Source of the DNA: Mesoaciditoga sp.
GTDB taxonomy: Bacteria > Thermotogota > Thermotogae > Mesoaciditogales > Mesoaciditogaceae
NCBI GenBank assembly: GCA_015491995.1
Contig: WGFY01000035.1
Coordinates: 1-64,000, forward strand
Direction of reading: 5' to 3'
Length of the DNA stretch: 64,000 nt
Numbering within the stretch: the first letter of the stretch is position 1; every line of letters begins with the position of its first letter. Of the stretch, positions 46,286 through 57,981 are shown one piece after another. Under the pieces are notes generated by a model, which saw nothing but the letters and a program-made list of their open reading frames with translations, did no database searches and was not told where the DNA came from. The position numbers and the translations under genes are program-made.

Positions 46286-46760
46286 TCAGCGCTTTCCGCT
46301 ATATATGATTTTGGTAGCATTTAATATGGCTATTAGGGAAATTCCAACATTTGCAAATACCGCCTCCCACATCATGGCCATGCCCATCAACTCAGTGTAA
46401 GGAAAGCGCTTTTAACAGTGAGCGCAAATATTATGTTTTCCCACACGATTTTTTGTGTTTTTTTACCTATGCGAATTCCTTCAGCAACTTTTGAAGGCGC
46501 ATCTGCCATTATGACAACGTCCGCTGCTTCGACAGCCGCATCTGATCCAAGCCCCTCATGGTAATTCCAACATCTCATCGATCGCTTCTTTTGCATCTTC
46601 TTTTATGACATTCAAAATGGTTATATGGCCTATATAAAAATCGTTTGAAGCACCATGCAGAACAGCATCGCTCACATCACATGTATCGTGAGCGATCTTT
46701 TCCTTGTGTAAGAGATGATCGTTGCCCACCACAACGATATTATCATTTATTTTCCCTTGT
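46286..46760 (-). pseudogene. Decayed P1B-type heavy-metal ATPase (ZntA/CadA-like), internal deletion and frameshift
   Basis: Minus-strand fragments GKINDNIVVVGNDHLLHKEKIAHDTC...ILNVIKEDAKEAIDEMLEL, EGLGSDAAVEAADVVIMADAPSKVAEGIRIGKKTQKIVWENIIFALTVKSAFLTL and, in another frame, LMGMAMMWEAVFANVGISLIAILNATKII; the TGD/GDGINDAP region is missing. Confidence 0.85.
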
Positions 46761-46836
46761 CAAATGAGGATTTTGACGGAACATTTTACCTTTTTCTAAA
46801 CAAGACAAAAATAGTCTAAATTTAACTTCTCCTTAA

Positions 46837-46864
46837 TTGAATTGAAATAAGAAAAGGGTATTCT
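46837..46864 (+). promoter_or_regulatory. Candidate promoter of the metal island (TTGAAT, 16 nt, TATTCT)
   Basis: -35/-10-like hexamers with 16-nt spacing just upstream of the palindrome at 46872. Confidence 0.5.
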
Positions 46865-46871
46865 GTTGTTG

Positions 46872-46897
46872 TACCACCCCCTCGGGATGGGGTTATG
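46872..46897 (+). promoter_or_regulatory. Candidate CsoR-type metal-responsive operator
   Basis: TACCACCCCCTCGGGATGGGGTTA: GC-rich arms ACCCC/GGGGT near the inferred transcription start. Confidence 0.5.
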
Positions 46898-46968
46898 AAA
46901 TCCCTAAGAAAGGATAGAAGAACATCTATCATATGTTGGATAACACAAAAATTCAGGAGGTGTCAATA

Positions 46969-47352
46969 ATGGAAATGATAAAAAAGAGTGTAAGTGGGAG
47001 AGATTTTGAGAGTTTGAAAACCATTCTAAAGGATGCAATTTCAAAGGAAGGATTTTCAATTCTTTCGGAATACGATTTCAAAAAAATACTCACTTCAAAA
47101 GGTATGAAATGTGCGGGTGATGCATACGTAATAGATATGTGCAACCCGTCAAATGCTGAGAGAATACTCTCTTCTGAAATGTCGCTCGGAATCAACCTTC
47201 CTTGCAAGATAGGAATTTTTGAAGAAAAAGGCGGATATAGCGTGATCTATCCAAATCCGGTATCCATTATAAAAACTGAGGATTCTACGGTACAAAATTC
47301 CTTAAATGAGATAAGCGATGTTTTAAAAAGAATTGTCACAGCATTAGAGTGA
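46969..47352 (+). CDS. DUF302-like protein
   Basis: DFESLKTILKDAISKEGFSILSEYDF...YVIDMCNPSNAERILSSEMSLGINLPCKIGIFEEKGGYSVIYPNPVSI. Confidence 0.75.
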   Translation: MEMIKKSVSGRDFESLKTILKDAISKEGFSILSEYDFKKILTSKGMKCAGDAYVIDMCNPSNAERILSSEMSLGINLPCKIGIFEEKGGYSVIYPNPVSIIKTEDSTVQNSLNEISDVLKRIVTALE

Positions 47353-47376
47353 GTTCGCAAGAAGGGGAAAACTAAG

Positions 47377-49818
47377 ATGAAAAAAGTTATCTTGGATCTG
47401 AAAGGAATGACTTGTGCTTCTTGTGCGATAACGATCGAGAAAGCGCTGAATAAAAAATCTGAAGGTGCCAAAGCGGTTGTGAATTTTGCAGTTGAGCGGG
47501 CTGTAATTGAAGGGGATGCGATAAAACCGGATCAGTTGATAAAAATAGTTAAAAGCACTGGCTACGGCGCTTCGCTTATAAAAGTTGAAGAGGAAAATGC
47601 CGATACCAAAAAAACTTACAAGGTTAGTGGTATGACTTGCGCATCATGTGCGACGACCGTGGAGAAGACTTTGAAGAAAGTGCCTGGTGTGGAAAGCGCA
47701 TCCGTCAACATCGCCACTGAAATGGCAACCGTTGTAATAGATCCTCATATCGTTTCTGAGCGCGAAATGGCAAAAGCGGTCTCAAATTCCGGCTACGAAC
47801 TTGTTATATCTCATGAAAAGCAAACATCCCGTACAGATGATTTTTCTCAAAGAGTTAATATGGCAAAGATGAAGATGATCTGGGCATGGGTAATTACAGG
47901 GCCTCTTGCCATCATGATGATCGTCGATATGGTCGGTATGAAAATACCGTATTTCGATTGGATCAGCATAATAGTCTCATTCCCGGTGATCTTCATCATA
48001 GGGTACGCTCCTATAAGAAGTGGGCTGGTGGCAATAACTCATTGGGGAACAAACATGGACGTCTTGATTTTACTCGGAGTTACAGCATCTTTCGCAACTG
48101 GCATCTTATCTCTTGCCGGCATGAAAATAGCCGATTACTCGGCTGTTGGGGCGATGATCATGGGCTTTTTCTTGATAGGAAAATACCTCGAGACTGCGGC
48201 GAAAGGGAAAGCATCAGAAGCCATTAAAAAGCTGCTTCAGATGAGTGCAAAAAATGCGCGTATCCTTGACGATGATGGTAAAGAGATCGAGATACCAACT
48301 GAATCTCTTGCGGTTGGCGATATCATGATAGTGAAACCTTCAGAACAGATCCCAACGGATGGTGTGATATTGGATGGAGATACCACGGTTGACGAATCGA
48401 TGGCAACTGGTGAATCGATGCCAATACGGCGAACGATCGGAGATGAAGTGATCGGCTCTACCGTCAACCAATTAGGTATGATAAAAGTAAGGGTCGTACA
48501 TGTTGGAGAAGACACTTTCCTTTCTCAAGTGGTCAAACTCGTTGATGAGGCTCAAGGTACAAAAGTGCCAATACAGGCTTTCGCCGATAAAATCGTTGGC
48601 ATATTCGTACCAGTCGTGCTCCTCACCGCGGCAGCAGTTTTCCTTTTTTGGCTTCTCAACCCTTCCGCAGGTCATGGAGTAATGGTTTGGGCTTCATCTT
48701 TCCTTCCTTGGGTTGATCCAAATCTTGACGCACTTTCGGCAGCGATATTTGCAGCGGTTGCCACTCTCGTCATAGCTTGCCCATGTGCACTCGGATTGGC
48801 CACTCCAACCGCTTTAATGGTCGGTTCTGGAAAAGGAGCATCAGAGGGGATACTGATCAGATCTGGTGAAGCTTTGCAGACTGCCAAAGATGTTGATACT
48901 GTGGTTTTTGATAAAACCGGTACGATAACCAGTGGAGTTCCACATGTTACGGATATCAAAACTGAGATGAAAGAAAGCGATTTTCTCAAGATCGTCGGCT
49001 CCATAGAAAGTTATTCTGAGCATCCACTTGGTAAAGCGATCGTCAAATACGCTCAATCCAAAGGCTTGGAATTCGAAAAGGTGGAAAATCTGCTTGTTCG
49101 TCCGGGGCTTGGAATAGAAGGAAATGTGAATGGCAAAAAGATCTTTGTCACAAGTCCACGATTTGCATCTTCAAAGGGTGTTGAGATTCCTGAAGATGTC
49201 CAGAGATACGGAACGGAAGGAAAAACGGTGATAATGGCTTTTGAAGAAGGAGGAAAGTATCTTGGTATTGTGGGGCTTTCCGATACCATCAAAGAAGGCG
49301 CGCATGAGGCTATAAAAGCGCTTAAAGAGATGGGAATAAAAACCGTCATGCTCACTGGCGATAACGAATTCACTGCAAAATCCGTTGCGAAACAGATGGA
49401 GATCGACGATGTACGATACAATTTGTTACCATCGGACAAGATAAAAGAGATAAAGACACTTCAATCACAATCAAGAATCGTTGCCATGGTTGGTGATGGT
49501 ATAAACGATGCCCCATCTCTGAAGCAAGCCAACGTTGGAATAGCCATAGGGACTGGCACGGATATAGCCAAAGAGGCCAGCGATATAACTTTGGTTAAAG
49601 GAGAACTTTCAGGAGTTGTTAAAGCCATCAAGCTTTCCAAGGCGACTTTCCAAAAAATACGCCAAAATCTATTTTGGGCTTTCTTCTACAACGTAGTTGC
49701 CATACCACTTGCCGGAATTGGCCTTTTGCATCCCGTCATAGCCGAAATAGCGATGGCATCGAGTTCGGTAAATGTCGTTACAAACTCTTTGAGACTCAAA
49801 AAGCGTTCCATCGACTGA
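47377..49818 (+). CDS. copA: Copper-translocating P-type ATPase with two HMA domains
   Basis: GMTCASCAITIEK and GMTCASCATTVEK, CPC motif ACPCALGLATPTALMVGSG, DKTGTIT, GDGINDAP, YNVVAIPLAG...MASSSVNVVTNSLRL. Confidence 0.95.
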   Translation: MKKVILDLKGMTCASCAITIEKALNKKSEGAKAVVNFAVERAVIEGDAIKPDQLIKIVKSTGYGASLIKVEEENADTKKTYKVSGMTCASCATTVEKTLKKVPGVESASVNIATEMATVVIDPHIVSEREMAKAVSNSGYELVISHEKQTSRTDDFSQRVNMAKMKMIWAWVITGPLAIMMIVDMVGMKIPYFDWISIIVSFPVIFIIGYAPIRSGLVAITHWGTNMDVLILLGVTASFATGILSLAGMKIADYSAVGAMIMGFFLIGKYLETAAKGKASEAIKKLLQMSAKNARILDDDGKEIEIPTESLAVGDIMIVKPSEQIPTDGVILDGDTTVDESMATGESMPIRRTIGDEVIGSTVNQLGMIKVRVVHVGEDTFLSQVVKLVDEAQGTKVPIQAFADKIVGIFVPVVLLTAAAVFLFWLLNPSAGHGVMVWASSFLPWVDPNLDALSAAIFAAVATLVIACPCALGLATPTALMVGSGKGASEGILIRSGEALQTAKDVDTVVFDKTGTITSGVPHVTDIKTEMKESDFLKIVGSIESYSEHPLGKAIVKYAQSKGLEFEKVENLLVRPGLGIEGNVNGKKIFVTSPRFASSKGVEIPEDVQRYGTEGKTVIMAFEEGGKYLGIVGLSDTIKEGAHEAIKALKEMGIKTVMLTGDNEFTAKSVAKQMEIDDVRYNLLPSDKIKEIKTLQSQSRIVAMVGDGINDAPSLKQANVGIAIGTGTDIAKEASDITLVKGELSGVVKAIKLSKATFQKIRQNLFWAFFYNVVAIPLAGIGLLHPVIAEIAMASSSVNVVTNSLRLKKRSID

Positions 49819-49831
49819 AATGGAGGTGAAT

Positions 49832-50071
49832 ATGATGAAACTTGATCATGTAAACGAAAAGATGACGCTCAAAGAAATAATGAATATGAATTCCTCTTTG
49901 GAACCTGAACTTTTTAAATTGGGATTCAACGCGTGTTGCTCCAAAATGGAAACAGTTGAAGCTTTCGCAAAGGATAAAAATATAAATGTCAAAAAAGCCA
50001 TAGAGGTCTTAAATACGAAGATAGATGAAGTGAACATGATTTCAGAATTACTCGATGATTACGATCAGTAA
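49832..50071 (+). CDS. DUF542/DUF1858 (ScdA N-terminal)-like small protein
   Basis: MTLKEIMNMNSSLEPELFKLGFNACCSKMETVEAFAKDKNINVKKAIEVLN. Confidence 0.6.
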   Translation: MMKLDHVNEKMTLKEIMNMNSSLEPELFKLGFNACCSKMETVEAFAKDKNINVKKAIEVLNTKIDEVNMISELLDDYDQ

Positions 50072-50098
50072 GAAAACAAAAAAACAGAGGTGAGAAAA

Positions 50099-50392
50099 AT
50101 GAAAGAAATTGAAAAGATGAAAAGCACGCTTAAGTACAAAGATCCGGTATGTGGAATATGGGTAGCTCCCGAAGAAGCGAAGGCAGCCGTATCTTACATC
50201 GGAGAGAATTACTACTTTTGCTCACAAAATTGCGCGATGGAATTCAACGCCGATCCCGAAAAATATCTTTCTCATTCTTACAAAGAAGAAGGTAAGTTAC
50301 AACAACCAGATGAATCTATGAGAATGGGACATGGTATGGGAATGATGAAAAACAAAAGCGGAGGCCATCACGGCTGCTGCGGTAGGAGATGA
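50099..50392 (+). CDS. YHS domain protein with Met/His/Cys-rich tail
   Basis: YKDPVCGIWVAPEEAKAAVSYIGENYYFCSQNCAMEFNADPEKYL; tail MRMGHGMGMMKNKSGGHHGCCGRR. Confidence 0.88.
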   Translation: MKEIEKMKSTLKYKDPVCGIWVAPEEAKAAVSYIGENYYFCSQNCAMEFNADPEKYLSHSYKEEGKLQQPDESMRMGHGMGMMKNKSGGHHGCCGRR

Positions 50393-50673
50393 GTGAAATG
50401 ATGTGGTATGGTGGCCCATGGGGCTGGGGCGGAGAATGGTTTGGATTAGGAGGAATTGGTATGATGATATTAGGTTTGTTAGGATTGATACTCTTTGTCG
50501 TTGGAATAATATACATTTTCAGGTGGATCGCTTACACGCCTTGGCATGGCGAGCGACAGTATAAAAGGTATTCTGGCAGCGAAGAATCTTTGGAAATTTT
50601 AAAGAGAAGATATGCCAGCGGTGAAATAAACAGAGAAGAGTACGAAAAGATGAAAAAAGATTTAGGATTTTAG
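50389..50673 (+). CDS. SHOCT domain small membrane protein
   Basis: One TM helix, then ESLEILKRRYASGEINREEYEKMKKDLGF. Confidence 0.85.
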   Translation: MSEMMWYGGPWGWGGEWFGLGGIGMMILGLLGLILFVVGIIYIFRWIAYTPWHGERQYKRYSGSEESLEILKRRYASGEINREEYEKMKKDLGF

Positions 50674-50689
50674 AAAGTAGGTGAATATC

Positions 50690-51301
50690 ATGAGCAGAAA
50701 AGGTTTCATAGGAATTTTGATAATAGGCGCGGTTCTCATTGCCGCAGGAGTTGGAACGATGATCTTCGCTTTTGGTGGAAATGAAATGGGTCGCTTTGGG
50801 TACAACTCCAACAGTATAACGACGACGTTCAATGCCACTGAAGTTGAAAGGTTGTCTTCAATACCCTCAACCGGTGTCAAAATTGATAAAAAAACGAACA
50901 CGATCGAATTTTACGGATCAAAAGTATCGATACTGATAATTGCAAGTCCTGAAAACGGTTCCATGTATTCTTTCGGAGTGTACGGCCTTGTCAATCCAAC
51001 GATAATAGTTCCCAAAGATGCCCAAATAAGCGTTCAGCTTATCAACATGGATGATGACATGTACCACGGTATCGTGATCACAGCGGGACCTCCTCCTTAT
51101 TTCTACATGGGAACGATGATGTTCGATGGACCAGCATTTGCCAACTCTTACATACAGCCTTTGCCGCAAGAAAGAAACGGTGAATACTTTGGATCGTCTA
51201 CGACATTTACACTCTCAACATCTGGAACTTTTTACTACATTTGCCAAGTAGTAGGACATGCTTCAAAAGGAATGTACGGAAAATTCGTGGTTAAAGATTA
51301 G
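50690..51301 (+). CDS. Membrane-anchored cupredoxin (type I copper protein)
   Basis: N-terminal TM; MYHGIVI ... FYYICQVVGHASKGMYGKFVV, with His/Cys/His/Met arrangement of a type I site. Confidence 0.82.
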   Translation: MSRKGFIGILIIGAVLIAAGVGTMIFAFGGNEMGRFGYNSNSITTTFNATEVERLSSIPSTGVKIDKKTNTIEFYGSKVSILIIASPENGSMYSFGVYGLVNPTIIVPKDAQISVQLINMDDDMYHGIVITAGPPPYFYMGTMMFDGPAFANSYIQPLPQERNGEYFGSSTTFTLSTSGTFYYICQVVGHASKGMYGKFVVKD

Positions 51302-51311
51302 AGGTGAGAAG

Positions 51312-51644
51312 ATGTCAAAGGTATTGGTGATCATGTCCTCAGATGATGTGAATAAAGCCGCTGCAGGGTTTGCATGGGCGACAAATGCTTTAAAAAACAA
51401 ATGGGTCGATGATGTTGAAATCGTACTATTCGGTCCAATAGAAAAAAAGATATCAGAAGGAAATGAAATTTTGATCTCTTGGATAGAGAAACTTAGGCAG
51501 ATGCAAAAACTCCCATACGCATGCAAAGCGATAGCCCAAGAAAAAAATTTTGAAGCATCTCTAAAACTTTACGCAAAAGTTGAATACGTTGGTGAAATGA
51601 TAGCTCGATTTATAAACAACGGATACGTTCCCATGGTGTTTTAG
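51312..51644 (+). CDS. DsrE/DsrF-like family protein
   Basis: VLVIMSSDDVNKAAAGFAWATNALKNKWVDDVEIVLFGPIEKKI. Confidence 0.65.
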   Translation: MSKVLVIMSSDDVNKAAAGFAWATNALKNKWVDDVEIVLFGPIEKKISEGNEILISWIEKLRQMQKLPYACKAIAQEKNFEASLKLYAKVEYVGEMIARFINNGYVPMVF

Positions 51645-51664
51645 GACCGTTAGTGGTGGCCAAA

Positions 51665-52276
51665 ATGAAAACCTCTACCAAGTACGATGCACTTTCGAAC
51701 TTTTATGATTTAATCGAAAAACATTTTGAAAGAAAAAGCTTTTCAAAGTGGAGAAAGCTGGTTTGGAAAAATGTATTACCGACTTCCAAAGTGTTAGAAG
51801 TCGGGGTAGGAACGGGCAAAAACATACCGTATTATCCTGATAATGTTGAAGTTGTGGGAATAGATTTCAGCCAGGGAATGTTGAAGAAGGCCACTTTACG
51901 ATCGGAAAACTATCCAAGCAAGAAGATGAAGCTGATAAAAATGGATGTAACCAACATGGTCTTTCCTTAAGACAATTTCGACTTTGTAATATCTACATTT
52001 GTATTTTGCACCGTTCCCAATCCAGCTGCTGGACTTAGAGAGATAAACAGGGTCCTCAAACCAAAAGGTCAAGCCATTTTTCTTGAACATATGAGGAGCG
52101 ATAGATGGTTTTACAACCTTCCTCTCTACATGATGAATCCTGCGATCAAAACACTTGTAGGAACCAGTGTGACAAGAAAAACGAAGGAAAACATTTTGAA
52201 GGCAGGATTGCTTATTGTGAAAGAAGAAAAACTTTTTTCTGACATAGTGAGGTTGTTGATTTGCAAGAAGGGATGA
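51665..52276 (+). pseudogene. Class I SAM-dependent methyltransferase interrupted by an in-frame TAA
   Basis: VLEVGVGTGKNIPYYPDNVEVVGIDFSQGMLKKA...MVFP*DNFDFVISTFVFCTVPNPAAGLREINRVLKPKGQAIFLEHMRS; same frame continues after TAA at 51968-51970. Confidence 0.85.
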
Positions 52277-52283
52277 AAAAAAA

Positions 52284-52727
52284 GTGATCGAGGTTTTTAC
52301 ATGAAAAGAGAAGGTGGTTGAAGTCTCAAAAGATCGTGATGGCGTGGTTGTGAAAGTGGTTTTCAACGAAGAAGAAAAGAGCATCAAAGCTGAAAAATTG
52401 CTTTTGTCGGTTGGAAGAAAGGCAAGCACTTCTTCTCTATCCTTCGAAAAAGCAGCTGTGAAACTTGGCGTAAGGAAAGAGATCGTGGTTAACAACAAGA
52501 TGAAAGCCTTAGATGGGATATGGGCTGCTGGAGATGTAACGGTCGAGCCAATGCTTGAAACCGTGGCCGCAAGGGAAGGAATGATTGCGGCAAGCAACGC
52601 TCTCTCTTCTGAAAAAATCAAAATGGATTACACCGTTATTCCACGGGAAGTTTTCACAGATCCGCAGTTGGCTACGGCTCAATCTTTTAAAAGGGATATA
52701 AGCAAGATGAGCTGTTGTGTGGAATGA
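52284..52727 (+). pseudogene. Mercuric reductase / dihydrolipoamide dehydrogenase-type flavoprotein fragment
   Basis: VIEVFT*KEKVVEVSKD...LLLSVGRKASTSSLSFEKAAVKLGVRKEIVVNNKMKALDGIWAAGDVTVEPMLETVAAREGMIAASNAL...IPREVFTDPQLATA; N-terminal FAD domain and C-terminal dimerisation domain absent. Confidence 0.82.
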
Positions 52728-52755
52728 AATTGAAAATTTTAGGAGGTGATCTTGA

Positions 52756-52962
52756 ATGAAGGTTAAAATTGAAGGAATGACCTGCGATAATTGCACGAGG
52801 ACTGTCAAAAGGGTGTTTTCTGAGATTGAGGGAGTTGATGAGGTGAAGGTTGATCTTAAAGGTGGATTTGCACAGGTCAAAACTTCTTCAGAGATATCGG
52901 AGCAAGCTTTTAAAACAGCGCTTGAAGACACGGCGTACGAAGTTGTCAACATCGAAGGATGA
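52756..52962 (+). CDS. Heavy-metal-associated (HMA) domain protein, MerP/CopZ-like
   Basis: MKVKIEGMTCDNCTRTVKRVFSEIEGVDEVKVDLKGGFAQV. Confidence 0.9.
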   Translation: MKVKIEGMTCDNCTRTVKRVFSEIEGVDEVKVDLKGGFAQVKTSSEISEQAFKTALEDTAYEVVNIEG

Positions 52963-53160
52963 TATGGCTGGCGCCAAGCGCGCCGGTCTTCTTCAACCGC
53001 GAATGATGACTGTAAAAGAATTCCGAAAGGCGCTATAGCTGAGTGTGTATGCGCTTTATAGGATGTATGATATCATAAGAACGATGTATGCCCACCCATT
53101 TTCAAAGATGTTTGAAGATGGGTGTTGAGAATTTTATCATGAGAGAGGTAGGCCATTTAA

Positions 53161-53472
53161 ATGTCAGATACAAAAGTTAAAAATTCTAAAAGTGCTAAAG
53201 AGGAAATGCACAAACATACAGAGGCTTTAAGACTCTTGAAAACTGCCAGAGGCCATCTTGAGGGAATCATCAAAATGATAGAAGATGAACGATACTGCAT
53301 CGATATCTCCACTCAACTGCTCGCCGTCATCTCACTTTTAAAAAAAGCTAATACCAGCGTGATAAACAAACACATAGAAACCTGTGTCCGTGAAGCTGTT
53401 GAAACCGGAAATGTCGAAGAAAAATTGGAAGAGCTTAAAAACATAATGAAGTACGTCGAAAAAAACCGTTGA
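53161..53472 (+). CDS. csoR: CsoR/FrmR (DUF156) family metal-sensing transcriptional repressor
   Basis: RLLKTARGHLEGIIKMIEDERYCIDISTQLLAVISLLKKANTSVINKHIETCVREAV; conserved Cys/His/Cys. Confidence 0.88.
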   Translation: MSDTKVKNSKSAKEEMHKHTEALRLLKTARGHLEGIIKMIEDERYCIDISTQLLAVISLLKKANTSVINKHIETCVREAVETGNVEEKLEELKNIMKYVEKNR

Positions 53473-53594
53473 GGCGACAAAAAAACTCGTCATCGCAATC
53501 CTTCTAAAGCCACTTCAATGTAAGTCCACTACCGAATAACACTTATTTCAACTTCAAAGTTCGTTGAGTGTAGCCATTTTATGGTAAAAAGGTG

Positions 53595-53694: not shown

Positions 53695-53958
53695 ATGCCA
53701 ACTGAAAATAAAAATAGGCGTCTTGGAGTAATCGCGATCATCGTAAAAGATCGTGACAGTACATATGTCGAACTTAACAAAATTTTTCACGATTTTGGAA
53801 AGATAATCGTTGGAAGACTTGGAGTGCCTTACCGTGAAAGGAACATATCCGTCATGGCTTTGATAGTGGATGGAAGTACCGATGAAATAGGTGCCATGAC
53901 AGGAAAAATAGGGCAAATAAAGAACGTCAGCGTCAAAACGGCGTTTACAAATATATGA
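53695..53958 (+). CDS. TM1266-family iron-only hydrogenase system regulator
   Basis: RLGVIAIIVKDRDSTYVELNKIFHDFGKIIVGRLGVPYRERNISVMALIVDGSTDEIGAMTGKIGQIKNVSVKT; precedes hydG. Confidence 0.88.
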   Translation: MPTENKNRRLGVIAIIVKDRDSTYVELNKIFHDFGKIIVGRLGVPYRERNISVMALIVDGSTDEIGAMTGKIGQIKNVSVKTAFTNI

Positions 53959-53972
53959 AAGAGGTGAGTTAT

Positions 53973-55472
53973 ATGAGAATAGAAGAGAGTTCGTGGGTGA
54001 AAAAAGTGATCAAAGAGGAACAATACGAAAAATACATGAATGAAGGAAAAGATTTCATAAACGACGATGAAATATGGGAAAAAGTCGAGAAGAATAAAGG
54101 TTCAACCCCGGAGAAAGTAAGGGAGATCATGAAAAAATCTTTGGATATTCAGACGCTTTCTCCAGACGAAACCGCCACGCTTCTAAATGTTAAAGATCCC
54201 TCGTTATGGGAGGAGATTTACGAAACTGCCGTCAAAATCAAAAGGAAGATCTACGACAACCGTATTGTCACATTCGCTCCACTTTATTGCAGTAATTATT
54301 GCGTGAACAACTGCCTTTACTGTGGTTTCAGGCGCGATAACAACGAGGAGATCAGAAGAAAGCTAACCCTTGAGGAAGTTAAAAAAGAAACTGAAATTTT
54401 GGCTGGAAAGGTAGGACATAAAAGGCTCATAGTCGTGTATGGCGAGCATCCCACTTCTGATGCCAATTACATAGCCGACACCATTAAAGCGATATACAGC
54501 GTTAAAGTGAAAACTAAGAACGGATATGGTGATATAAGGCGCGTCAACATCAACGCAGCTCCCATGTCAATTGAAGATCTTGCCATGCTCAAAGATGTTG
54601 GAATAGGCACGTATCAGGTATTTCAAGAAACGTATCATCATGAAACTTACAAAAAGATTCATCCTTTCGGAACTTTGAAATCACATTACCAATGGAGACT
54701 TTATTCCATGCATAGGGCATTCGAAGCAAATGTCGATGATGTGGCGATAGGTGCACTTTTTGGGTTGTATGATTGGAGATTTGAAGTTATGGGACTCCTT
54801 TATCACACCATAGAACTTGAAAAGCGATTTGGCGTTGGGCCACATACGGTCTCCTTTCCAAGGCTGACGCCCGCCAAAAATGCCCCGTACAGCCAAAAAA
54901 CCCAGTACGAAGTTTCAGATGAAGATTTCAAAAAACTCGTCGCCGTGATAAGACTTTCTATTCCATACACTGGAATGATCATCACCGCACGTGAACCGGC
55001 AAGTATAAGAAGAGAGATGCTTCCGATATGCACACAAACGGATGCTTCGACTAAAATAGGAATAGGTGCTTACTCCTCTAAAAAAAGAGCACAGGACCTC
55101 GCAAAGCAGCAATTCTTCATAGGAGACGCCAGAGAACTTGACGATGTGGTAAAAGAGCTTGCCGAAATGGGATATATAACATCCTTTTGCACAGCAGGGT
55201 ACAGATGTGGTCGAACAGGAAAGAACATAATGGAACTGTTGAAGACGGGAAGAGAAGGAAATTTCTGCAAATTGAATGCCATCCTCACATTTCGTGAATG
55301 GCTTGATGATTTTGCAAGCGAGGAAACCAAAAAGGTAGGCGAAGAGCTTATTAAAAAGGAAATGGAAGAGGTTAGAGCAAGAACCCCACGAACTTTTTCT
55401 CCAAAAGTCGCTGATGAACTTACAAATTATTACGAGAGGATAAAAAATGGAGAAAGAGATCTGTATTTCTAA
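53973..55472 (+). CDS. hydG: [FeFe]-hydrogenase maturase HydG (radical SAM tyrosine lyase)
   Basis: CSNYCVNNCLYCGFRRDN, GEHPTSDANYIADTI, TASTKIGIG-like TDASTKIGIGAY, CTAGYRCGRTGKNIMELL. Confidence 0.95.
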   Translation: MRIEESSWVKKVIKEEQYEKYMNEGKDFINDDEIWEKVEKNKGSTPEKVREIMKKSLDIQTLSPDETATLLNVKDPSLWEEIYETAVKIKRKIYDNRIVTFAPLYCSNYCVNNCLYCGFRRDNNEEIRRKLTLEEVKKETEILAGKVGHKRLIVVYGEHPTSDANYIADTIKAIYSVKVKTKNGYGDIRRVNINAAPMSIEDLAMLKDVGIGTYQVFQETYHHETYKKIHPFGTLKSHYQWRLYSMHRAFEANVDDVAIGALFGLYDWRFEVMGLLYHTIELEKRFGVGPHTVSFPRLTPAKNAPYSQKTQYEVSDEDFKKLVAVIRLSIPYTGMIITAREPASIRREMLPICTQTDASTKIGIGAYSSKKRAQDLAKQQFFIGDARELDDVVKELAEMGYITSFCTAGYRCGRTGKNIMELLKTGREGNFCKLNAILTFREWLDDFASEETKKVGEELIKKEMEEVRARTPRTFSPKVADELTNYYERIKNGERDLYF

Positions 55473-55722
55473 ACTGAAACAGGTTGCAGAACTTTACAAC
55501 ATCAGAATATGGATAGCAGAGAAAATGGGAAGAAGGTGGTCTTACGTTATAGGAGCTGGCAAAGAACTTTTTTTGCCAAGCCAGATGATCACCAAGATCG
55601 GGAAATATGCCATTTTTGTTGAGGGAGATCAATTTGACAAGGAGGTGATCATCGATGATGTTCGAAAATTACTTGAATCCCAGGACCTTCAAAAAAGTAA
55701 AGGAAATGTTGGGAAGCGATGA
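55447..55722 (+). CDS. Small hypothetical protein between hydG and hydE
   Basis: 91-aa ORF with RBS GAGAGG; overlaps both neighbours; position comparable to the small ORF in the Thermotoga hyd maturation locus. Confidence 0.6.
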   Translation: MEKEICISKLKQVAELYNIRIWIAEKMGRRWSYVIGAGKELFLPSQMITKIGKYAIFVEGDQFDKEVIIDDVRKLLESQDLQKSKGNVGKR

Positions 55723-56758
55723 TATCTCTCAAACCATGAAGGTGATCTCTAAAAAAGTTCTCGCCGAGGAAACATTATCAAAGGAGGAAATCATTTACCT
55801 TTTGCAGCTTGAAGAATCACCCAATAGAAAAGCTTTATTTGATCTCGCAAATGCGGTTCGATGTGATACTTTGGGAGAAACCATCTTCATAAAGGGAGTG
55901 ATAGAATTCTCAAATTACTGCAAAAGGGAATGTGCTTATTGTGGAATACGTGCTTCGTCTAAAATAAGGCGTTACAGAATGGATCCAGAAGAAATCGTGA
56001 AAGTTGCGACAGATTCTGCCAGACATGGAATAAACACGATCATACTCCAATCAGGTGAGGATCCGTTTTACACGACGGAGATCATGAGCGATATAATAAA
56101 GAAGATAAGAGAGGCCACCAAGAAACCCATTTCGCTTTCAATTGGCGAGAGAACTCCGGAAGAGTTCAAACTGTTTAAAGAAGTTGGCGCTTCGAAATGC
56201 CTTCTGAAGCAAGAAAGCGTGAACCCTCAAATCTTCAAATCCGTTCACGGATTTGATTACGAAACGAGGATATCACTTTTAAAAATTCTAGTTTTACTCG
56301 GATACGTAACTGGTGGAGGTGATATAATTGGACTTCCAAACCAAACACTTGGCGACATCGCAGATGATATCATTTTCATGCGTGATATCGGCATCAAGAT
56401 GGTCGGTATTGGCCCATTCATCCCGACCAAAAATACCCCTCTTGAAAATCACCCAATTGGAAGCGTAGATGTGACTTTAAACGCGTATGCTTGTACGCGC
56501 CTCGCCATTCCTTCAGTCCTTTTACCATCGACAACGGCTCTTGCAACGATCGACCCTAATTTGCAATACAAGGGATTAGATGTGGGTTGTAACGTCATAA
56601 TGGTGAATTTCACCCCGGCTGAGTGCCGCCAAATTTACAATATATACGATGATAAAAGGAACGTCGAGTTCTATCAGACAACCCGTGAATTGTTGAAACG
56701 CAAGAAAAGGCTCTCCCCATCGATTTTGAAAGCACTCGAAAGGAAAGAAGTGGTATGA
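55655..56758 (+). CDS. hydE: [FeFe]-hydrogenase maturase HydE
   Basis: IEFSNYCKRECAYCGIRASSKIRRYRM, LQSGEDPFYTTEIM, GVGP-like GIGPFIPTKNTPLEN. Confidence 0.94.
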   Translation: MMFENYLNPRTFKKVKEMLGSDDISQTMKVISKKVLAEETLSKEEIIYLLQLEESPNRKALFDLANAVRCDTLGETIFIKGVIEFSNYCKRECAYCGIRASSKIRRYRMDPEEIVKVATDSARHGINTIILQSGEDPFYTTEIMSDIIKKIREATKKPISLSIGERTPEEFKLFKEVGASKCLLKQESVNPQIFKSVHGFDYETRISLLKILVLLGYVTGGGDIIGLPNQTLGDIADDIIFMRDIGIKMVGIGPFIPTKNTPLENHPIGSVDVTLNAYACTRLAIPSVLLPSTTALATIDPNLQYKGLDVGCNVIMVNFTPAECRQIYNIYDDKRNVEFYQTTRELLKRKKRLSPSILKALERKEVV

Positions 56759-57981
56759 AAACTGCCGAGGCTTACAGGAAGCATTTGATATTTCTTGGAC
56801 GAAGGAACAGTGGAAAATCTTCCCTTTTTAACGCTTTTGTTGGATCAGAAATAGCGATCGTTGCCGATCATCCTGGAACGACTACCGATCCTGTTTACAA
56901 ATCGATGGAATTGTCCCCAATAGGCCCCATCATGCTGATAGACACCGCCGGGATTGATGACGAAGGCTATCTTGGTAAACTACGGGCTTCGAAAACCAAT
57001 TCAGTCCTTTACAAAGCGGACGCTGCTTGCCTCGTCATCGATTCAGGGTGGACGGAATTTGAAGATGAAATAGTAAAAGAGCTGAAAAAGAGAGGGATTC
57101 CCTTTGTGGTGGTCATAACAAAATCAGATCTTGGTAAAAATCAAGAATTGATAGATCTTGTAAAATCCCAAAAATTCGTGTATTGTGTGGTTTCAAAGTA
57201 CGATGAAAAGTCGATTGAAGCGTTGAGAGTAACCATATCTTCTGTGATGAAAGAAGAGTACGAACCACCTTTGATCGAAGATCTCGTGGATGGCGGAGAT
57301 ATAATCGTTCTTGTCGTTCCAATAGACCTTGGGGCACCTAAAGGTAGGCTCATAGTACCTCAAATTGAGGTGATAAGAGAATGCCTTGATGCTGAAGCCA
57401 TACCGATTGTCACCAAAGAAAGAGAACTCAGATGGACTCTTGAAAGCCTCAAGAGGAAACCGAAAATGGTCGTAACAGACTCGCAAGCTGTCATGCGAGT
57501 GGTAGCAGATGTCCCATTAGACGTTCCCATGACGACATTCTCAATACTTGAGGCAAGGCACAAAGGAGATCTTTTGGAACTCGTAAGAGGATTAAGCGCC
57601 ATACCAGCTCTCAAAGATGGGGACGATGTGCTTATCGGCGAAGCCTGTACGCATAGAACGCTCGCGGATGACATAGCGAGAGTGAAGATCCCAAGATGGC
57701 TCATGAATTTCATCGGAAAGAACGTACGCTTTTCCGTTCATTCAGGAAGAGAGTATCCAGAAGAGATCGAAAAATACAAGCTGATAATTCACTGTGGTGG
57801 ATGCGTTGTAACAAGGAATATGATGTTAAGAAGAATTGAAGAGGCCAAGAAATTTGGCGTTCCAATAGTGAACTACGGAGTTATAATATCTTACTTGCAC
57901 GGAGTTTTGGGAAGGGCACTTGAGCCCTTTCCACAAGTAAAAGCTTTGTATGAGGAGATGGAAAGTGCGAAAAGAATTTGA
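56755..57981 (+). CDS. hydF: [FeFe]-hydrogenase maturation GTPase HydF
   Basis: GRRNSGKSSLFNAF, DHPGTTTDPV, DTAGIDDEG, EACTHRTLADDIARVKIPRWL, HCGGCVVTRNMMLRR. Confidence 0.94.
   Translation: MKTAEAYRKHLIFLGRRNSGKSSLFNAFVGSEIAIVADHPGTTTDPVYKSMELSPIGPIMLIDTAGIDDEGYLGKLRASKTNSVLYKADAACLVIDSGWTEFEDEIVKELKKRGIPFVVVITKSDLGKNQELIDLVKSQKFVYCVVSKYDEKSIEALRVTISSVMKEEYEPPLIEDLVDGGDIIVLVVPIDLGAPKGRLIVPQIEVIRECLDAEAIPIVTKERELRWTLESLKRKPKMVVTDSQAVMRVVADVPLDVPMTTFSILEARHKGDLLELVRGLSAIPALKDGDDVLIGEACTHRTLADDIARVKIPRWLMNFIGKNVRFSVHSGREYPEEIEKYKLIIHCGGCVVTRNMMLRRIEEAKKFGVPIVNYGVIISYLHGVLGRALEPFPQVKALYEEMESAKRI

Follow-up and report, generated by a model that had tools for sequence, protein, structure and literature searches.

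The window, by which we mean the whole 64,000-nucleotide stretch of DNA analysed, carries a run of 11 genes on the + strand (46969-53472) that we read as an operon for Cu(I) efflux under CsoR control, extended by an accessory kit specific to the lineage, at a probability of about 0.72. Judged by its sequence, the core is of a known kind, the CsoR-CopZ-CopA efflux operon. The novel element of the system is a family of small di-cysteine proteins with a CC-x-K-M motif, to which we assign a putative role. The observations behind this reading are gene content, conserved neighbourhood, ligand residues, an operator-like site and YHS-SHOCT fusions in relatives, and we infer the roles of the individual accessory proteins.

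Layout of the copper island

The stretch is contig 35 of a draft genome of 1.77 Mb (80 contigs, about 88% complete). It comes from a thermophilic bacterium whose family is probably Mesoaciditogaceae, a placement that we base on kinship. The gene list of the first-pass annotation was confirmed in content, order and strand by open reading frames and by Pfam and NCBIfam profiles (Table 1). The run begins with the DUF302 gene at 46969, or at 46933 if the longer open reading frame is taken, and its last base is 53472. From the DUF302 gene to the methyltransferase gene, neighbouring genes overlap or are separated by 10-27 bases, which suits a single operon, and we infer that the genes at 46969-53472 are co-transcribed and copper-responsive. 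The final gene, csoR, is separated by about 200 bases and may therefore have its own promoter. Two genes, those of the methyltransferase and the MerA-type protein, are dead in this assembly. Promoter and terminator scans of the island returned no more hits than in shuffled sequences, and an Rfam scan of it gave no match. Just upstream, on the opposite strand (46390-46596, -), lies a decayed pump gene, a 69-aa remainder of the C-terminal part of another heavy-metal P-type ATPase, which scores 52 bits on the CopA profile.

Table 1. Features of the copper island and the main match or property of each
Feature	Position	Strand	Match or property
CsoR-operator-like G-tract pseudo-palindrome TACCACCCCCTCGGGATGGGGTTA	46872-46895	none	73 bases upstream of DUF302 start
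DUF302 protein, 127 aa	46969-47352	+	PF03625, 45.3 bits (cut-off 23)
CopA, Cu(I) P1B-1 ATPase, two N-terminal HMA domains	47377-49818	+	TIGR01511
CC-x-K-M protein, 79 aa	49832-50071	+	Remote DUF1858/ScdA-N resemblance
YHS protein, Met/His/Cys-rich tail	50099-50392	+	PF04945, 60 bits
SHOCT protein	50389-50673	+	PF09851, 39.7 bits
Membrane-anchored rusticyanin-type cupredoxin	50690-51301	+	TIGR03095
DsrE-like protein, 110 aa	51312-51644	+	Weak fold match
Class I SAM-dependent methyltransferase, interrupted	51665-52276	+	One in-frame TAA, 51968-51970
MerA-type flavoreductase remnant, doubly deleted	52314-52727	+	TIGR02053 positions 234-353 of 465
HMA carrier (CopZ-like), 68 aa	52756-52962	+	PF00403, 53.9 bits
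CsoR repressor	53161-53472	+	PF02583, 86 bits

Efflux core and operator-like sites

CopA (813 aa; 544 bits to its profile, cut-off 397) carries the motifs of P1B-1 ATPases, namely CxxC in the HMA domains, CPC, YN and MxxSS; read from the sequence, these are two GMTCASC domains and CPC, YN and MASSS in the transmembrane part. No other CopA-like gene was found in the assembly at E<=1e-30. CsoR has the Cys-His-Cys ligand set for Cu(I), with the pattern Y45-C46, H71 and C75 in its sequence, and we take the spacing of C46, H71 and C75 to be that of Mycobacterium tuberculosis CsoR. In the CsoR tree, the repressor of the window groups with that of locus L065 (99/94). CsoR proteins of Desulfurella-type genomes come out close to those of the window's family, which suggests transfer; the deeper forks are weak. 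Anaerobes that are thermophilic or acid-tolerant have probably exchanged these genes horizontally, but the tree is too weak to serve as proof.

CsoR operators are G-tract pseudo-palindromes, with ATATACCCCTNAGGGGTATAT as the Streptomyces consensus (PMC3902906). The element upstream of the DUF302 gene has this form and is a putative CsoR operator. It holds the sole CCCC-N8-GGGG of the 64-kb window, where shuffling expects 0.38. Of the 32 CCCC-N2-8-GGGG sites in the Thermotogota loci retrieved, 18 lay in start windows of cluster genes, where 3.5 were expected (p 6e-10), and the density was 5.3-fold that at other ORF starts of the same loci (p 4e-4). Both p-values are approximate because the windows (-200 to +60 bases) were fixed after the existence of the sites had been seen. 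More degenerate versions (ATCCCCACCCC...GGGATGGGATA) precede the clusters of L023, L063, L119 and L120. The two CC-x-K-M genes that have no copA nearby each carry a CCCC-N2-8-GGGG site shortly before their own operon, at a distance of 18-32 bases. The site lies directly before the CC-x-K-M gene in L076 and before a methyltransferase-CC-x-K-M-SHOCT operon in L068. Many recurrent accessory and copper operons have a CsoR-operator-like site in front. GC-rich palindromes can also serve other functions, which counts against the operator reading. In the Thermotoga-type clusters (L071 and the L086-L089 equivalents), neither a nearby CsoR gene nor a G-tract site was found, and regulation therefore differs there. 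A different palindrome, TGCTACAATTAGTGTAGCA, occupies the divergent SHOCT/YHS promoter of L071 (10343-10430), which points to a different regulator for the same kit.

The CC-x-K-M protein and its association with copA

The CC-x-K-M protein did not reach any curated family in Pfam, NCBIfam or PHROGs. It had been labelled ScdA-N/DUF542-like in the first-pass annotation, which overstated a remote resemblance: no curated cut-off was passed and ScdA_N gave no match. The best Pfam match was DUF1858, at 19.7 bits against a cut-off of 32.2. For a relative of the protein, the best and sole match in 72,556 plasmids was the N-terminus of a Ric/ScdA repair protein. Membership in Ric/ScdA (DUF542) was rejected on the missing ScdA_N match and on length, as 79 aa leave no hemerythrin-like diiron domain. 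A single-sequence AlphaFold model reached a pLDDT of 58, too poor to support a fold.

Homologues of about 75-94 aa were found in 32 of 103 Thermotogota genomes, 34 in total. The neighbourhood of every one of them was fetched, and cluster genes were scored by purpose-built profiles. A copA gene lay within 5 kb of 29 of the 31 homologues that keep CC-x-K-M and of none of the three without CC; with 2-3 ATPases in a genome of ~2 Mb, we estimate chance proximity at about 2% per gene. G013 (88% complete), the only family member tested that has no CopA-like gene at E<=1e-30, lacks the CC-x-K-M gene as well. The pairing spans eight Thermotogota families, Thermotoga-type genomes included, so it is not one inherited block. 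By these counts, CopA has no accessory partner in Thermotogota as constant as the CC-x-K-M protein. Among 349 genomes of the phylum of Desulfosporosinus, a search gave two weak matches, both inside ORFs of 298-642 aa; the short form therefore looks Thermotogota-specific. It was not found in seven cupredoxin-carrying genomes, in a search run without a positive control.

Recurrence of the accessory genes

We next consider the genes that accompany the pair. Within 5 kb of the 31 CC-x-K-M genes were SHOCT genes in 24 cases, HMA carriers in 22, CsoR in 17, DUF302 in 15, YHS in 9 and cupredoxin in 3. The methyltransferase, which the first-pass annotation had listed correctly and left without a role, recurs near about 14 of the 31; two neighbours (L061 and L062) were left out of this count as apparently unrelated genes of the UbiE type. 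The order of the genes changes from genus to genus, as one would expect of a shared regulon more than of one fixed complex. Furthermore, SHOCT, YHS, DUF302 and cupredoxin genes stand with CopA and CsoR in Desulfurella/Hippea-type genomes of another phylum, in the arrangements CsoR-cupredoxin-SHOCT-YHS-CopA, SHOCT-cupredoxin-CsoR-DUF302-CopA and SHOCT-CopA-HMA-CsoR. The genomes named in that search were Hippea and a Campylobacterota MAG; the name Desulfurella is our assumption. In Desulfosporosinus sp. I2, SHOCT, DUF302, methyltransferase and cupredoxin genes lie within 2.5 kb.

The recurrence of nearly the same set beside copA in relatives and in a distant phylum indicates that the small proteins are probably real parts of copper handling. 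The co-occurrence with copA beyond close relatives thus stood up, and the rarity that the first-pass annotation had named as speaking against it was not what the neighbourhood search found. Its proposal that the accessory set deals with metal is likewise supported, by the co-occurrence with copA across families and in another phylum and by the operator-like sites before many of the operons. The 'sulfur handling' that it offered beside metal fared worse. The sole ground for it was the DsrE-like gene, and the other Thermotogota homologues of this gene were not found in the copper clusters examined.

YHS, SHOCT and cupredoxin proteins

The YHS protein has the four-ligand set of YHS/TRASH domains, one Asp and three Cys (D15/C18/C41/C45). 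The spacing is identical to that of D178/C181/C204/C208, which have been proposed as metal ligands in an adenylyl cyclase of Mycobacterium phlei whose YHS domain responds to copper (PMC4626032). On plasmids, the protein matches parts of SilP and heavy-metal ATPases, and by sequence it appears to be the detached form of an ATPase domain. The SHOCT protein consists of a Met/Trp/Gly-rich N-terminus, one transmembrane helix and a C-terminal SHOCT domain, which the positive-inside rule predicts to be cytosolic. In L022 and L065, single proteins fuse YHS, a Met/His-rich stretch and SHOCT. A SHOCT gene stands directly upstream of the cupredoxin gene in all six Thermotogota loci with both, and also in the four Desulfurella/Hippea-type loci with both, L009, L010, L115 and L119. 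Together, this adjacency, the YHS-SHOCT fusions and the occurrence of YHS within ATPases link SHOCT, YHS and the pump. SHOCT proteins are widespread and their function is mostly unassigned; the fusions offer a functional lead for them.

The cupredoxin scored 112.8 bits (E 1.6e-32) on the rusticyanin profile, under the equivalog cut-off of 146.7, and is by this measure rusticyanin-type, not a rusticyanin. H126, C185, H190 and M195 are invariant in eight cupredoxin sequences and form a type-1 C-x4-H-x4-M site, and rusticyanin structures match the protein (2cak, E 8.6e-25). By the positive-inside rule it would face outwards. Among 103 Thermotogota genomes, 6 encode it, every one from the window's family, and a tblastn search against plasmids gave no match.

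Methyltransferase, MerA-type remnant and DsrE-like protein

The stop in the methyltransferase gene falls in the context ...MVFP*DNFDF..., through which relatives read; intact 203-aa relatives occur in the same neighbourhood in L022, L023 and L065. A remote similarity to PmtA and UbiE suggests that the enzyme may act on lipids or quinones. The 'mercuric-reductase-like fragment' of the first-pass annotation is indeed MerA-type, and is in fact a remnant with two deletions. Compared with an intact 493-aa relative, it retains residues 261-381 and the last ~17, fused together, and has lost the N-terminal half along with the greater part of the C-terminal domain. The redox-active CxxxxC and the FAD domain are missing from the window's copy and present in that of L019, whose copper cluster encodes an intact 493-aa MerA-type reductase (548 bits).

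The DsrE-like protein matched nothing in Pfam, NCBIfam or PHROGs. For its single-sequence model (pLDDT 72), the best structural match was 2fb6 (E 3.4e-3), with DsrE/F folds behind it and none at E<=0.001. As none of the other Thermotogota homologues was found in the copper clusters examined, DsrE was rejected as a member of the module in Thermotogota. Only in two loci, both Desulfurella-type, was a DsrE-like gene seen near a SHOCT-CopA-HMA-CsoR cluster, at a distance of about 1-1.3 kb (L117 10949-11263, -; L118 7300-7620, +). These are the only support found for the link and are no more than suggestive; the place that the first-pass annotation gave this protein in the accessory module is doubtful.

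Proposed mechanism and alternative explanations

In the scheme that we propose, a rise in cytosolic Cu(I) would take CsoR off the G-tract operator at 46872-46895, and the operon would be expressed. The HMA carrier, the YHS protein and the CC-x-K-M protein would bind Cu(I) in the cytosol, and the SHOCT protein would be a membrane adaptor that takes the YHS metal-binding module to CopA. CopA would pump Cu(I) out, and the type-1 cupredoxin, tethered outside via its N-terminal helix, would receive or buffer the exported copper. The methyltransferase and the MerA-type reductase would belong to a wider set, broken here. YHS, CsoR, cupredoxin and CopA each keep their full set of ligands. Within this scheme, we regard it as possible, at somewhat under even odds, that the CC-x-K-M protein is the founding member of a new Cu(I) chaperone or buffer family, which would use vicinal Cys in a small helical protein. 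With the SHOCT adaptor and the YHS module, it would then form a membrane platform for copper efflux in thermophilic anaerobes.

The island might instead be a plain CopZ-CopA-CsoR operon in a recombination-prone region, where the small genes are unrelated hitch-hikers that share the regulator at most accidentally. Widely varying gene order, the decaying pieces (methyltransferase stop and MerA remnant), the lack of conservation of DsrE and the second ATPase remnant upstream all fit such a history. However, the families that recur across eight Thermotogota families and another phylum are the same ones and not a random set, the CC residues track with proximity to copA, and YHS-SHOCT fusions exist, so that we consider mere hitch-hiking unlikely. 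Slightly less probable still is a kit that mainly protects or repairs the targets of copper damage (thiols, iron-sulfur clusters and lipids) and does not move copper, with the CC-x-K-M protein as a redox or Fe-S protein and DUF302 and the methyltransferase as repair factors. In its favour, the hosts are anaerobes rich in Fe-S enzymes, and some clusters include an AhpD-like protein. The CC-x-K-M protein also has a remote likeness to DUF1858 and to the N-terminal part of Ric/ScdA, an Fe-S repair protein, and the methyltransferase is similar to PmtA and UbiE, which are enzymes of lipids and quinones. Yet the CC-x-K-M protein is far too short for the Ric/ScdA diiron domain, YHS and cupredoxin are metal binders, and no Fe-S assembly genes recur in the clusters.

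That the cluster handles mercury or silver in place of copper is very improbable. The intact MerA-type reductase of L019 (548 bits) and the similarity of YHS to SilP point that way; by contrast, the Cu(I) ligands of CsoR, the Cu-type motifs of the ATPase and the type-1 copper site of the cupredoxin speak for copper, no merT, merP or merR was recognised nearby, and MerA is broken in the window. On this last ground, mercury resistance was rejected as the primary role. MerA-like enzymes can also reduce Cu(II), as is reported for RclA (PMC7527725).

Comparison with known systems

A CsoR-regulated Cu(I) efflux operon with accessory proteins has several partial parallels. Like the CsoR-CopZ-CopA operons of Mycobacterium, Bacillus and Streptomyces, the island combines a Cu(I)-type CsoR, an HMA carrier, a P1B-1 CopA and a G-tract operator-like site; unlike them, it adds CC-x-K-M, YHS, SHOCT, DUF302, methyltransferase and cupredoxin genes and has its carrier and repressor at the far end. 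PacL1-CtpC of Mycobacterium tuberculosis offers a precedent for a small membrane protein as the organiser of a P1B ATPase (PMC9374683). There, too, a small one-helix membrane protein, proposed as adaptor or scaffold, is encoded beside the ATPase, but the window has SHOCT and not PacL, its ATPase is copper-type whereas CtpC is zinc-type, and its metal-binding tail is on YHS, separate or, in relatives, fused. The likeness seems to be one of arrangement, not homology. We take the PacL family to be DUF1490, and a Pfam scan of the window's SHOCT membrane protein found SHOCT and no DUF1490, so that it is not PacL by sequence.

A tethered cupredoxin can serve CopA, as CupA does in Streptococcus pneumoniae (PMC5646241). 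Both systems place a membrane-tethered cupredoxin beside CopA in an operon with a copper repressor, an analogy and not homology: the window's cupredoxin is rusticyanin-type with a mononuclear H-C-H-M site and is predicted to face outwards, and its repressor is CsoR, theirs CopY. The rusticyanin and AcoP genes of Acidithiobacillus are copper-induced (PMC7463520). The cupredoxin is a type-1 protein like these two, but is membrane-anchored and encoded in a CopA/CsoR cluster instead of an iron-oxidation operon. As in SilP and other YHS-bearing heavy-metal ATPases, a YHS domain with a Met/His-rich stretch would serve a soft-metal ATPase; unlike in SilP, it is free-standing in the window and SHOCT-fused in relatives.

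In the open-access full-text literature, we found no paper describing this gene combination, and to our knowledge copper handling in strictly anaerobic thermophiles has been little studied. The system is functionally coherent and wider than the first-pass annotation could show, with the unnamed CC-x-K-M family at its centre. This family has no curated entry, yet almost all the Thermotogota genomes with a CC-x-K-M gene have it next to copA, which makes the protein a testable candidate for a new copper-linked protein.

Other genes near the clusters

Several further small proteins were seen at these loci. An AhpD/carboxymuconolactone-decarboxylase-like protein, absent from the window, recurs in several Thermotogota copper clusters (L071 9769-10092, PF02627; L074 5617-5958; L079 6539-6898). 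A Cys/His-rich protein of 55-65 aa (CDICGLHY...AKQC..WC..H.GSCN) without a Pfam match is encoded next to copper genes in several members of the window's family (L061 7721-7894, L063 98-262 and L022 2765-2956). In the Desulfurella-type loci L117 (8957-9199) and L118 (3133-3375), an 81-aa protein, labelled glutaredoxin-like from its sequence, is encoded between CopA and the HMA carrier. Directly downstream of the island (53695-57981, +) are a small protein and apparent [FeFe]-hydrogenase maturation genes, which look HydG-, HydE- and HydF-like and are named here from their sequence. L075, which comes from a different Thermotogota family, has a YHS gene after a hydG/hydE-like pair.
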